The translations under genes and the position numbers were made by a program. Below the pieces are notes generated by a model. The model searched no databases and was not told where the DNA came from. It worked only from the letters and a program-made list of their open reading frames with translations. DNA of 64,000 bases from Pseudomonas sp. LFM046 (lineage in GTDB: Bacteria; Pseudomonadota; Gammaproteobacteria; Pseudomonadales; Pseudomonadaceae), in assembly GCF_000949385.2 (NCBI RefSeq), contig NZ_JYKO02000001.1, forward strand, positions 3,212,648 to 3,276,647. The letters are read 5' to 3'. Positions 2,087-8,508 of this stretch are shown here, piece by piece. The stretch's first letter is position 1. Each line of letters begins with the position of its first letter.

Positions 2087-2394
2087 GGGGCACCTCACGG
2101 AAAAGGGTTCAGGATCAGGCCAGCAGGCCTCGATCCAGGTAACTGCAGGGCGGATGCGCCACGGCATCCACTGGGTGCCCATTCCAGCGGTGGGAGATAT
2201 CGCGGATGTGTCCGCGGCCACCGGTGATTGCCACGCCAGGTATCGGCACCTGTCCCTGATACAGGCGGATACGCAGGACGATTGTGAAAGCCCAGGTATC
2301 CAGCGGCGGCTGGATACACTGGAATACAAAGGGCGGCGGGCAAGCGTCGTGGTGCCCGATACACTAGGCCTCAACGAAATGACGAGGACTGACC
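2087..2394. promoter_or_regulatory. Divergent control region with GTATCC/GGATAC repeats
   Basis: This 308-bp gap between the dipZ-like gene and the two-component pair holds no gene. It carries clustered hexamers: GTATCG 2240, TGATAC 2257, GGATAC 2267, GTATCC 2296, GGATAC 2312, GAATAC 2322 and CGATAC 2357. Pairs 2257/2267 and 2312/2322 are direct repeats offset by 10 bp, the usual geometry of OmpR-family sites. GTATCCAGC at 2296-2304 and GCTGGATAC at 2309-2317 form a perfect 9-bp inverted repeat with a 4-nt spacer. The same hexamer pairs lie upstream of hvfA. Binding by the adjacent response regulator is inference. Confidence 0.6.
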
Positions 2395-3135
2395 ATGGAC
2401 CATGTCGATCACATCCTGATCGTCGACGATGATCGCGAAATCCGCGAGCTGGTCGGCAACTACCTAAAAAAGAACGGCCTGCGCGTCAGCCTGGCAGCGG
2501 ATGGCCGGCAGATGCGCGCCTTCCTCGACGGCAATGCGGTGGACCTGATCGTCCTCGACATCATGATGCCGGGCGACGACGGCCTGCGCCTGTGCCGCGA
2601 GCTGCGCGTGGGCAAGCACAAGGCCACGCCGATTCTGATGCTGACGGCGCGCAACGACGAGACCGACCGCATCATCGGCCTGGAAATGGGCGCCGACGAC
2701 TACCTGACCAAGCCCTTCTCCGCCCGCGAGTTGCTGGCCCGGATCAACGCCGTGCTGCGGCGGACCCGCATGCTGCCGCCGAACCTGCAGATCAGCGAGA
2801 GCAGCCGGCTGATCGGCTTCGGCCAGTGGCGCCTGGACACCAGCGCGCGCCATCTGCTGGACGAACAGGGCACCATGGTCGCCCTGAGTGGCGCCGAATA
2901 CCGGCTGCTGCGGGTATTCGTCGACCACCCGCAGCGGGTGCTCAGCCGCGAGCAACTGCTCAACCTCACCCAGGGCCGCGAGGCGGACATCTTCGACCGT
3001 TCCATCGATCTGTTGGTCAGCCGGTTGCGCCAGCGCCTGCAGGACGACGCCCGCGAGCCCGCCTACATCAAGACGGTGCGCAGCGAGGGCTACGTCTTCT
3101 CGCTGCCCGTGCAACTGATCGAGCCGAGCGAATGA
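2395..3135 (+). CDS. OmpR-family response regulator
   Basis: A 246-aa DNA-binding regulator. The receiver domain (residues 1-120) has the acidic patch VDDD (10-13), the phospho-acceptor D55 in VLDIMMPG, the LTARND switch and K106 in LTKPFS. A winged-helix Trans_reg_C domain (about 140-240) ends in VRSEGYVFS. The next gene, a histidine kinase, overlaps its stop (ATGA), so the two are translationally coupled. Its upstream region has OmpR-type direct repeats that recur upstream of hvfA, suggesting autoregulation and control of the RiPP operon. The signal is not evident from the sequence. Close relatives are often annotated ParR, OmpR or CpxR-like, but no specific name is safe. Confidence 0.93.
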   Translation: MDHVDHILIVDDDREIRELVGNYLKKNGLRVSLAADGRQMRAFLDGNAVDLIVLDIMMPGDDGLRLCRELRVGKHKATPILMLTARNDETDRIIGLEMGADDYLTKPFSARELLARINAVLRRTRMLPPNLQISESSRLIGFGQWRLDTSARHLLDEQGTMVALSGAEYRLLRVFVDHPQRVLSREQLLNLTQGREADIFDRSIDLLVSRLRQRLQDDAREPAYIKTVRSEGYVFSLPVQLIEPSE

Positions 3136-4442
3136 TGTCGCCGCTGCGCTGGCCGCGCACCCTGGCCGCTCGCCTGGCGCTGATCTTCTTCAGCGGCCTG
3201 GTGCTCGCCTACGGGCTGTCCTTCGGCTCGCAGTTCTACGAGCGCTACCAGACCGGGCGCGACGTGATGCTGGGCAACCTGGAAACCGACGTCAGCACCG
3301 CCGTCGCCCTGCTCGACCGCCTGCCGGCGGAGGAACGGGCCGCCTGGCTGCCGATGCTGGAGCGGCGCAATTACCGCTATCGGCTGGACGAAGGCCTGCC
3401 CGGAAAACCGATTGAGACGGCAGAGGCGCCGATGGCGGCGAACACCATCCAGCGGGCCGTTGGCGAGCGCTTCCCCCTGCGCTTCGAGAGCATTCCCGGG
3501 CCGACCCCGCACTTCCAGGCCCACCTGCGCCTCAGCGACGGCCGCCCCCTGACCCTGGACGTCACGCCCGGTCCCATACCGGTGGCCAAGTGGCTGCCCG
3601 TGGTGTTGCTGGTGCAACTCGCCCTGCTGCTGTTCTGCACCTGGGTGGCGGTGCGCATGGCGATCCGCCCGCTGACCCGGCTCGCCCATGCCGTAGACCA
3701 CCTCGACCCGGACAGCCCCGGCCCGCAACTGGACGAGCACGGCCCACAGGAGGTGGTTTATGCCGCCCGTGCCTTCAATGCCCTGCAGGACCGCATCGCC
3801 GCCTACCTGAAGGAACGTATCCAGTTGCTGGCGGCCATCTCCCACGATCTGCAGACCCCCATCACACGAATGAAGCTACGTGTCGAACAGATGGACACCT
3901 CCACCGAGCGCGAGCGCCTGTGGAGCGACCTGAACGAAATGCAGCACCTCGTGAAGGAAGGCGTCGCCTATGCACGCAGCATGGACGGTGGCAGCGAGGC
4001 CGTCTGCCGGGTGGACCTCGATGCGTTTCTCGACAGTCTGGTCTGCGACTACCAGGACAGCGGCCAGGCGGTCAGCCTCGAAGGCAGCAGCGGCGTGTTG
4101 CTGGAAACCCGCCCCCACGCCCTGCGCCGGGTGCTGGGCAACCTGATCGACAACGCCCTGAAATTCGGTGGCAGCGCCCACCTGGAAGTGCAACCTGATG
4201 TACAGGGCAAGGTGCAGGTGCGGGTGCTGGACAACGGCCCCGGCATCCCCGAAGACGCGCTGGTCGAGGTGTTCAAACCCTTCTACCGGGTGGAAAGCTC
4301 GCGCAACCGCAGCACCGGCGGCACCGGCCTGGGCCTGGCCATCGCCCAACAGTTGAGCCTGGCCCTGGGCGGCCAGCTCAGCCTGCAAAACCGCGAAAGC
4401 GGCGGCCTGTGCGCACAACTGGAACTGCGGCCCGCGCCCTGA
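3132..4442 (+). CDS. Sensor histidine kinase
   Basis: A 436-aa inner-membrane kinase. It has an N-terminal TM helix (about 12-34), a periplasmic region of about 120 residues, a second TM (about 155-180), a HAMP-like linker, and a HisKA domain with H238 in ISHDLQTP. The ATPase domain shows the N box (NLIDNALKFG), G1 (DNGPGIP) and G2 (GGTGLGLAI). The first ATG overlaps the regulator's stop by 4 nt; a second ATG follows immediately, so the start is uncertain by one codon. The periplasmic part has no obvious His/Met/Cys metal-binding cluster, so direct copper sensing cannot be claimed. Confidence 0.93.
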   Translation: MMSPLRWPRTLAARLALIFFSGLVLAYGLSFGSQFYERYQTGRDVMLGNLETDVSTAVALLDRLPAEERAAWLPMLERRNYRYRLDEGLPGKPIETAEAPMAANTIQRAVGERFPLRFESIPGPTPHFQAHLRLSDGRPLTLDVTPGPIPVAKWLPVVLLVQLALLLFCTWVAVRMAIRPLTRLAHAVDHLDPDSPGPQLDEHGPQEVVYAARAFNALQDRIAAYLKERIQLLAAISHDLQTPITRMKLRVEQMDTSTERERLWSDLNEMQHLVKEGVAYARSMDGGSEAVCRVDLDAFLDSLVCDYQDSGQAVSLEGSSGVLLETRPHALRRVLGNLIDNALKFGGSAHLEVQPDVQGKVQVRVLDNGPGIPEDALVEVFKPFYRVESSRNRSTGGTGLGLAIAQQLSLALGGQLSLQNRESGGLCAQLELRPAP

Positions 4443-4565
4443 ACGCGTTGTACAAAGCCATACACAGAGCCCCCTGCCAGACACATCCGGGACAAGCCGC
4501 CCTGAGAGCATGCAACCACCCGCAACGGCATCCCGCCGTCGCACTCCGGCCAAGGAGCATGCCCC

Positions 4566-7667: not shown

Positions 7668-7737
7668 GGGCATTCTCCTGAAGGCGAAGTCCCCCTCCCC
7701 GGCACGCGCACAGGGAGGGAGGTACGACGGAGCCGGA

Positions 7738-8202
7738 TCAGTTCTTGGCCTGGCTCAGCTTGGTGAACAGCTCGGTGGGCACTTTCTTGCCGTTGGAGAT
7801 GTACTGGTTGGTGCGGAACTTGTAGACCTCGCCCTCGGACAGGTAACCGTCCTTGTTGGTGTCCATGGCGATGAATTCCGCCTCACCCTGCGGGGCCACG
7901 GTCAGGAGTTCCTGGCGGGAAACGCGACCGTCGTCATCGGTGTCGGTGCGGGCGAAGGACGCATCGCCGCACTTGCCTTCACCACACTTGCCTTCGGCCT
8001 GGGTGGCCTTGGCGCTGGCGCCGCTGGCACCACACTTGCCTTCGCCACACTTGCCCTCGCCGGCTTTATCCGCGGCGGCGAGTTGGTAGCCCTGGGGCAG
8101 CGCCTCCACGGCGAAAGCGCTGGAGGCCATGTTGATGCCGCCGGCCAGGGCGACAGCGATCAGGCCAATACGAGTCTTGGTCGAGAACTGGTTACGGGAC
8201 AT
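7738..8202 (-). CDS. hvfA: HvfA-like RiPP precursor: four EGKCG motifs plus two EF-hands
   Basis: A 154-aa secreted precursor. A signal peptide (basic residues 3-11, hydrophobic 12-22) probably ends after A31 (SSAFA). Four EGKCG motifs occupy residues 49-53, 54-58, 70-74 and 75-79, giving C52, C57, C73 and C78, two tandem pairs separated by an 11-residue Ala/Ser linker. Two textbook 12-residue EF-hand loops follow: residues 87-98 (D, D, D, G, V, E at ligand positions) and 114-125 (D, N, D, G, L, E). The start at 8202 has GGAG 7-9 nt upstream. The modified cysteines would bind copper in the periplasm (family knowledge); the EF-hands suggest a calcium-stabilised domain and are unusual. Confidence 0.9.
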
Positions 8203-8508
8203 GGTGTTTCTCCGGATGCTGTGCGCGGCGGTGCCGCGCGGGTCATGCCACAAGGGCGTTGAAACCCTGGACCGAGGCGCTTGGGCTTCCTCGTTCGGGT
8301 GTGGCTATTTCGCCTCAGGCGTGTATCCGCGGCGTATCCGGGAGACGGAACATTTGTATGCCAACCCGCGGGCAACGAATCCGGATACAAAGGGATACGT
8401 CGCAGCTGGGGCGGGTCAGGGAAGTCGTGCGGGAGAGAGGAGATCGGGCCGCGTCAACGGCCCCGGGATGGGCATTGCGCCCATCCCGATGGATCGGTTG
8501 TCAGCGAG
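8203..8508. promoter_or_regulatory. hvfA upstream region with paired GTATCC repeats
   Basis: This 306-bp gap has no gene. GTATCC occurs at 8323-8328 and 8334-8339 (offset 11 bp), and its complement GGATAC at 8383-8388 and 8393-8398 (offset 10 bp). That is four exact copies within 76 bp, arranged as two facing direct-repeat pairs. They lie 120-200 bp upstream of the hvfA start. The same hexamer is clustered upstream of the two-component pair at 2257-2362, including a matching ATACAAAGGG segment (2324-2333 and 8385-8394). Confidence 0.6.

Follow-up and report, generated by a model that had tools for sequence, protein, structure and literature searches.

Do the GGATAC/GTATCC repeats shared by two intergenic regions of the Pseudomonas sp. 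LFM046 genome tie a two-component system to a nearby operon for a ribosomally synthesized and post-translationally modified peptide (RiPP)? The question is raised by a stretch of 64,000 nucleotides of contig NZ_JYKO02000001.1, referred to here as the window, in which a response regulator gene begins at 2395 beside a divergent dipZ-like gene, and an hvfABC-ohr operon is encoded further along. The sequence-only reading of this DNA had proposed that the regulator controls itself, the dipZ-like gene and hvfABC. The current analysis makes it probable that the regulator controls its own operon, the dipZ-like gene and hvfABC-ohr by means of tandem GATAC operators, and the proposal gains support from conserved pairs that are found even before unlinked hvf operons. 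The comparison of genomes itself shows the operator and its geometry, that it co-occurs with the regulator, and that it is present at unlinked targets.

All seven exact hexamers reported earlier are present in the window (2267, 2296, 2312, 8323, 8334, 8383 and 8393), four of them inside the 76 bp (8323-8398) that precede hvfA. The window as a whole contains 21 such hexamers against 13.4 expected, a mild enrichment reached by 3 of 100 shuffles. Upstream of hvfA (8203-8508) four hexamers and two exact GATAC pairs at 10/11 bp have been identified, each attained in none of 5000 dinucleotide shuffles. The region upstream of the regulator (2087-2394) has three hexamers (10/5000 shuffles), six GATAC/GTATC pentamers (0/5000) and one exact pair (6/5000). 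The pattern GGATACN4GGATAC with at most one mismatch occurs at six sites genome-wide, three of which lie in these two intergenic regions. The clusters are far beyond chance, and it is the hexamer count alone that is only mildly high. GGATAC has been rejected as the repeat unit, the conserved core being GATAC, and the alignment of GATAC pairs gives GATACAnnGnRATACAAA for the main operator. The sole exact match of GATACANNGNRATACAAA in this genome is the main operator at 2313..2330. The operators and promoter elements of the two regions are as follows.

2240..2254, minus strand: degenerate tandem site facing dipZ, GTATCGGCACCTGTC; orthologs have GTATCN6GTGTC
2258..2272, plus strand: distal operator pair of the regulator side, GATACAGGCGGATAC, 10-bp spacing
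2296..2300, minus strand: single conserved half-site GTATC, all five positions in the top conservation class in 67 aligned upstream regions
2313..2330, plus strand: main operator of the regulator promoter, GATACACTGGAATACAAA
2360..2365, plus strand: TACACT, -10 element of the regulator promoter, TAnACT in orthologs
8323..8338, minus strand: hvfA proximal operator pair, GATACGCCGCGGATAC on the hvfA strand, 11-bp spacing, downstream of the -10-like element
8353..8358, minus strand: TACAAA, -10-like element of hvfA
8384..8398, plus strand: hvfA distal operator pair, GTATCCCTTTGTATC on the hvfA strand, 10-bp spacing

The variant repeats that had been listed along with the exact ones stand in part. 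Those at 2257 and 2322 are true half-sites and that at 2240 is one half of the degenerate pair facing dipZ, but 2357 has been rejected as a regulator site, as it overlaps the TACACT -10 element. Of 88 sequences, 70 have the dipZ-facing pattern GTATCN6GTGTC in the 400 bp before the regulator gene, against none in the coding control; the window carries a variant of it.

The offset of 10-11 bp between paired repeats, noted earlier in this one genome, recurs as a spacing peak across orthologs. On the regulator side the same-strand GATAC spacings peak at 10 bp (47 of the 60 spacings up to 40 bp), and on the hvfA side at 10 and 11 bp (66 of 75, in two regulator-bearing groups). The distance to the promoter is equally regular. 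TAnACT follows the main operator by 30 nt (65 cases) or 31 nt (one case) in 66 of 73 operator-bearing sequences among 88 examined, and TACAAA lies 25 or 26 nt beyond the hvfA distal pair in all 42 pairs from operons with hvfB of at least 70% identity. Outside Pseudomonadaceae 13 loci were checked: seven carry a TATAAA/TAAGAT element at a distance of 19 nt, and the remaining six lack either an operator match or an element of this kind at 19 nt. Three Pseudomonas loci have theirs at 30 nt. The two distances, 19 and 30 nt, are one helical turn apart. Such spacing suggests an activator that would touch the polymerase near -35, and the hvfA distal pair is the likely activating site. The proximal pair would fall just inside the transcript, suggesting a second role such as feedback repression.

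The co-occurrence of the operator with the regulator has been analysed in 298 genomes of the family. A match to the regulator at E<=1e-70 is found in 86 of them, 79 at 77% identity or above and seven with only a relative at 52-56%, which were counted as regulator-free; within the genus 13 of 18 genomes encode it. Of the 79 genomes with the regulator 70 have the exact operator, and of the 219 without it none does; the reversed operator pattern is absent from all 298. The order dipZ / regulator-kinase / hvfX / ohr-hvfCBA recurs, and the scan of related genomes that had been proposed as a check shows the GATAC pairs kept upstream of both the regulator and hvfA across genera, so that the refutation named beforehand, a lack of conservation at orthologous loci, does not apply. 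A dipZ match by tblastn is present in the stretch at 79 of 101 Pseudomonadaceae loci, which include some genomes twice (e.g. L076 and L139), and at 20 of 30 other loci with a regulator of at least 65% identity. That the hexamers are a matter of shared ancestry or chance and carry no regulatory meaning is hardly credible: the mildly raised count over the whole window is in its favour, but the shuffles at hvfA, the rigid spacing to the -10 element, and the absence of the exact operator from regulator-free genomes and of the reversed pattern from all genomes of the family speak against it.

With hvfB at 66% identity or above there are 61 genomes, the window genome and 60 others, and all of them carry the regulator. 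For 19 of these 60 genomes the hvf operon lies away from the regulator (about 10 kb to more than 1 Mb, or on another contig), and 18 of these 19 keep the upstream GATAC pair. Among the other 41, a precursor at least 48% identical to HvfA is encoded in 26; 25 are paired and the 26th (L077) is clipped at the stretch end. Related hvf operons in regulator-free genomes, 20 taken as controls out of 35 places with hvfB at 53-63%, have the pair in none of the 20; loci with hvfB below 55% identity were excluded from the hvf pair counts. Second-type hvf paralogs within regulator-bearing genomes also have no pair (0/5), nor does one more distant operon. In L094, L097, L105, L107 and L109, which have linked hvfBC operons and no detectable hvfA homolog, an operator pair is situated directly before hvfB.

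The regulator has been identified well outside the family, at 68-83% identity in Rhizobium, Mesorhizobium, Sinorhizobium, Microvirga, Paraburkholderia, Caballeronia, Variovorax, Massilia, Lysobacter and Lelliottia. A collection of plasmids yields 99 records with the regulator at 80-90% identity, and of its 200 matching records 100 are from Sinorhizobium and 23 from Rhizobium. The common operator is found before the regulator operons of Rhizobium, Paraburkholderia, Lysobacter and Lelliottia, in Alpha-, Beta- and Gammaproteobacteria alike. A GATAC pair within 3 kb upstream is present in 23 of 30 loci outside Pseudomonadaceae with the regulator at 65% or above, against 2 of 34 relatives below 63%; the reversed control motif occurs in none of the former group and in one of the latter. 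One locus at 63% and one Pseudomonas relative, both without the pair, belong to neither group. In the sample of the phylum, the exact operator is present in 13 of 25 regulator-bearing genomes and 3 of 373 others, and after removal of 17 family members in 8 of 19 and 3 of 362. In the 30 loci the regulator is accompanied by dipZ in 20, by an alpha/beta hydrolase gene in 17, by ohr in 16 and by a gene for a GFA protein in 7, and none of the 30 stretches has hvfA, B, C or X at the thresholds used. The absence of hvf outside Pseudomonadaceae is limited to those thresholds, as locus L173 of Massilia encodes an hvfB-like gene (about 2830-3660, 42% identity) 4-5 kb from the regulator.

Several observations weigh against control by the regulator as proposed. 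Nine of the 79 regulator genomes of the family have no exact operator; outside the family seven of the 30 regulator loci are without the pair and two of the 34 distant relatives have it; and three genomes of the phylum carry the exact operator but no regulator at E<=1e-90. The hvfA operators in this genome are three or more mismatches from the full consensus, and their affinity may therefore differ. Where a linked hvfBC operon has a divergent precursor (39-43%) the pair is found in 0 of 3 cases, and where no precursor was detected in 5 of 12. Because the control operons from regulator-free genomes fall into another hvfB clade (57-63% identity), ancestry is a partial confounder of the comparison with them; the whole-genome operator counts, unlike it, are free of this confounding. 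Finally, G010, a regulator-free member of the genus, still has an exact GGATAC pair next to the remains of an hvf operon. In L363 (about 3779-6037) the pair is accompanied by hvfC, ohr and a gene resembling hvfA (81%), but hvfB matches only over its first 63 and its last 47 residues, which marks it as a relic in decay.

The data are comparative and other regulators could co-occur with the same genes, and the repeats could on that account be bound by another transcription factor travelling with the gene set. We regard this as improbable. From class to class the companions vary but the regulator keeps its operator, and L177 and L179 keep the operator though none of the searched companions was found there. 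Dimers of the OmpR family bind head-to-tail on direct repeats with half-sites of about 10 bp, which the head-to-tail repeats of 10-11 bp fit. Relatives of the regulator below 62% identity differ in the residue pattern of the recognition region and are mostly without the pair.

The earlier reading had further described the genes as a self-contained regulon, and this is too strong. The exact operator also precedes dipZ-DUF2790 genes in genomes whose dipZ lies away from the regulator (L359, L360 and probably L355) and alpha/beta-hydrolase genes on contigs other than that of the regulator (L361, L369), and one candidate has been identified in the present genome. L368 was not counted as a hydrolase promoter since its operator is downstream of the hydrolase gene. 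A promoter driven by the repeats directly before hvfX or ohr was also rejected for this genome, no hexamer being present there; in some orthologs GGATAC occurs just after the kinase gene. In L356 (G274:C1:1459083) an exact operator is situated 150 bp before a reading frame with choline/betaine-type ABC transporter domains.

The candidate was retained alone from four two-mismatch operator sites found elsewhere in this genome. At L303 a two-mismatch operator (G000:C1:3332888) precedes GCTTACAAAGGC, a sequence similar to the hvfA promoter element, beyond which lies a gene for a small secreted-type protein. Upstream of genes for such proteins L362 has an exact operator, and L364 and L365 have GGATAC pairs. 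The members of this family (MKTLKSLLTSIAFSLAGVAVH...) are encoded in L303 at 2549-2857 (near G000:C1:3332700), L362 at 4040-4717, L364 at 3494-3697 and L365 at 3614-3817. The protein of L362 contains repeats of DGFSRTPLGMRV; that of L303 has no NCBIfam match and that of L362 no Pfam match. Genes for a GlxA-like AraC regulator and an SDR protein are also found near the operator variants of Pseudomonas relatives (L303 3407-5262; L364 3888-5737), and the same two genes adjoin the kinase in Massilia (L173 10063-11946).

What signal the kinase perceives bears on the role of the whole set. Its sensor region (residues 28-170) has been compared in 39 of 40 fragments, L179 being left out, and among the invariant or nearly invariant residues there is no His but a single Met and a single Cys (residue 169, in the second membrane helix). 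A dedicated copper sensor, in which the kinase would bind periplasmic Cu(I) directly in the manner of CusS/CopS and govern a copper regulon, is unlikely. In its favour, the unlinked dipZ genes are adjoined by DUF2790 genes, which we take to be linked to copper. The targets also include a RiPP type described as copper-chelating (bufferins) in the accessible part of PMC12452194. On the other side, the companions outside Pseudomonadaceae are dipZ, ohr, the hydrolase and GFA; operators at copAB clusters (L357, L358), which might have supplied a link to a copper regulon, were rejected because the match falls inside a reading frame and is probably due to chance; and the boxes of Pseudomonas CopR/CusR/CzcR, as given in the accessible part of PMC11195947, differ from those found here. 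The sensor residues, together with dipZ and ohr, speak for an oxidative or thiol signal rather than for direct binding of copper, though copper could act through such damage.

We infer binding, the direction of regulation and the signal as follows. A phosphorylated dimer of the regulator would bind head-to-tail on the tandem half-sites of GATACAnnGnRATACAAA (10-11 bp repeat), placed at a fixed helical phase upstream of weak promoters, and would activate its own operon (regulator-kinase, perhaps also hvfX), the divergent dipZ-like gene and hvfABC-ohr. The kinase would most likely report oxidative or thiol damage of the envelope, of a kind that copper, organic peroxides or reactive chlorine could cause. 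In response DipZ would repair periplasmic thiols and Ohr would remove organic peroxides, to which Pseudomonadaceae would add a Cys-rich EF-hand peptide, modified and possibly able to bind the metal.

The companions outside Pseudomonadaceae (dipZ, ohr, hydrolase, GFA) indicate that the regulator is by ancestry not RiPP-specific. Because of these companions and of the operators before unlinked dipZ and hydrolase genes, the regulator is read as a stress regulator of older origin, to which the RiPP operon was later added: the system looks like an old proteobacterial regulator-operator pair, with the RiPP operon recruited in Pseudomonadaceae, and its ancestral role was probably in thiol/peroxide-type envelope stress. 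As a more tentative suggestion, which we hold to be somewhat less probable than its converse, one regulator-operator pair across Alpha-, Beta- and Gammaproteobacteria, partly on large rhizobial plasmids, may define an unnamed envelope thiol/peroxide response sensed through the Cys of the second transmembrane helix of the kinase, the EF-hand EGKCG RiPP being primarily a redox and not a copper-export member. The regulator gene, the exact operator and a short list of targets (dipZ, ohr, an exported-type hydrolase and hvfABC) provide a candidate switch for EGKCG-type MNIO RiPPs, so that the inducing stress is directly testable with a reporter. The locus would also illustrate how a natural-product operon came under an older stress regulon, regulator-bearing and regulator-free genomes serving as a natural control set.

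The genes of the locus have been assigned as follows.

857..2086, minus strand: dipZ-like gene, DsbD-type membrane part and C-terminal thioredoxin/redoxin domain, divergent from the regulator
2395..3135, plus strand: response regulator of the OmpR/PhoB family, Pfam Response_reg and Trans_reg_C
3132..4442, plus strand: membrane sensor histidine kinase, Pfam HATPase_c, HisKA below its own cut-off
4566..5066, plus strand: hvfX (DoxX family), NCBIfam HvfX equivalog 145.6 against a cut-off of 80
5603..6025, minus strand: ohr, OsmC-family organic hydroperoxide reductase, TIGR03561 149.3 against 88.85
6080..6829, minus strand: hvfC, RRE-type RiPP partner protein, NCBIfam HvfC 285.3 against 142
6819..7673, minus strand: hvfB, MNIO maturase, NCBIfam HvfB 420.6 against 360
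7738..8202, minus strand: hvfA-type precursor, signal-peptide-like start, four EGKCG motifs and two EF-hands (EF-hand_5)

HvfB, HvfC and HvfX all score above their equivalog cut-offs, which places the locus among the HvfABC(X) MNIO RiPP clusters; the presence of hvfX and ohr, claimed earlier, is borne out by the HvfX and TIGR03561 scores. The precursor exceeds the cut-off of the KCGExKCG domain model (41.4 against 19.5) and remains below that of the HvfA equivalog NF050188 (30.0 against 95). With a short EGKCG part followed by two EF-hands it has the make-up of a Buf_EGKC|EF-hand_5 chimaera, as far as this class is set out in the accessible text. The C-terminal domain of the dipZ-like protein has a Pfam Redoxin/AhpC-TSA match, and the assignment of its membrane part rests on the sequence and on a DsbD_TM match in a relative. 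Situated 54 bp after hvfC, ohr is probably in the operon of hvfC.

OmpR-EnvZ resembles the window pair in domain architecture, the regulator having the receiver and the Trans_reg_C winged-helix domain of the OmpR/PhoB type. OmpR-EnvZ also uses a tandem direct-repeat operator with half-sites of about 10 bp; tandem repeats of 10-11 bp are conserved here, as predicted binding sites. The best NCBIfam models of the regulator and kinase are OmpR (254.6) and EnvZ (172.9), but both proteins fall below the equivalog cut-offs (331 and 415) and their targets differ. As far as is known, the operator and the sensor part of OmpR-EnvZ also differ from those of the window system. On the cop/cus-type heavy-metal regulator model (TIGR01387) the regulator scores 141.2 bits, below the cut-off of 279.2.

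The sigmaF regulon of Caulobacter reportedly contains an MNIO operon. The gig/bufferin operons under extracytoplasmic function (ECF) sigma factors (Caulobacter sigmaF, accessible part of PMC3511200) are similar in having an MNIO RiPP operon under stress control; here, in contrast, a two-component regulator and GATAC operators are found. Precursors of the Buf_EGKC|EF-hand_5 type with MNIO/DUF2063 partners, in the sections of PMC12452194 at hand, share with the window the EGKCG part and two EF-hands, the hvfB/hvfC neighbours and DoxX. For Buf1 clusters the same sections describe sigma-factor/NrsF genes. The term two-component has 0 occurrences in PMC12452194 and is absent from the accessible parts of the related RiPP-cluster papers PMC13097082 and PMC12538549, and no prior description of the GATAC operator or regulon was among the papers listed by literature searches. 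EfhP (PA4107) of P. aeruginosa, an EF-hand protein with a suggested operon with the DUF692/DUF2063 genes PA4106/PA4105, is reported in the available portions of PMC4053335 and PMC11559002 to be under CarSR and BfmRS, and its homolog in P. syringae adjoins a kinase and a regulator. It is comparable as an EF-hand protein with DUF692/DUF2063 neighbours under two-component control, although CarR is only a distant relative of the window regulator (receiver domain, 80.8 bits).

Two further features of the locus have been identified. Between hvfX and ohr, at 5126-5523, there is an array of a 122-bp unit in 3.3 copies with 93% match. A gene for a TIGR04211 SH3-domain protein (8509-9177) lies on the strand of hvfA, just upstream of the hvfA promoter region.

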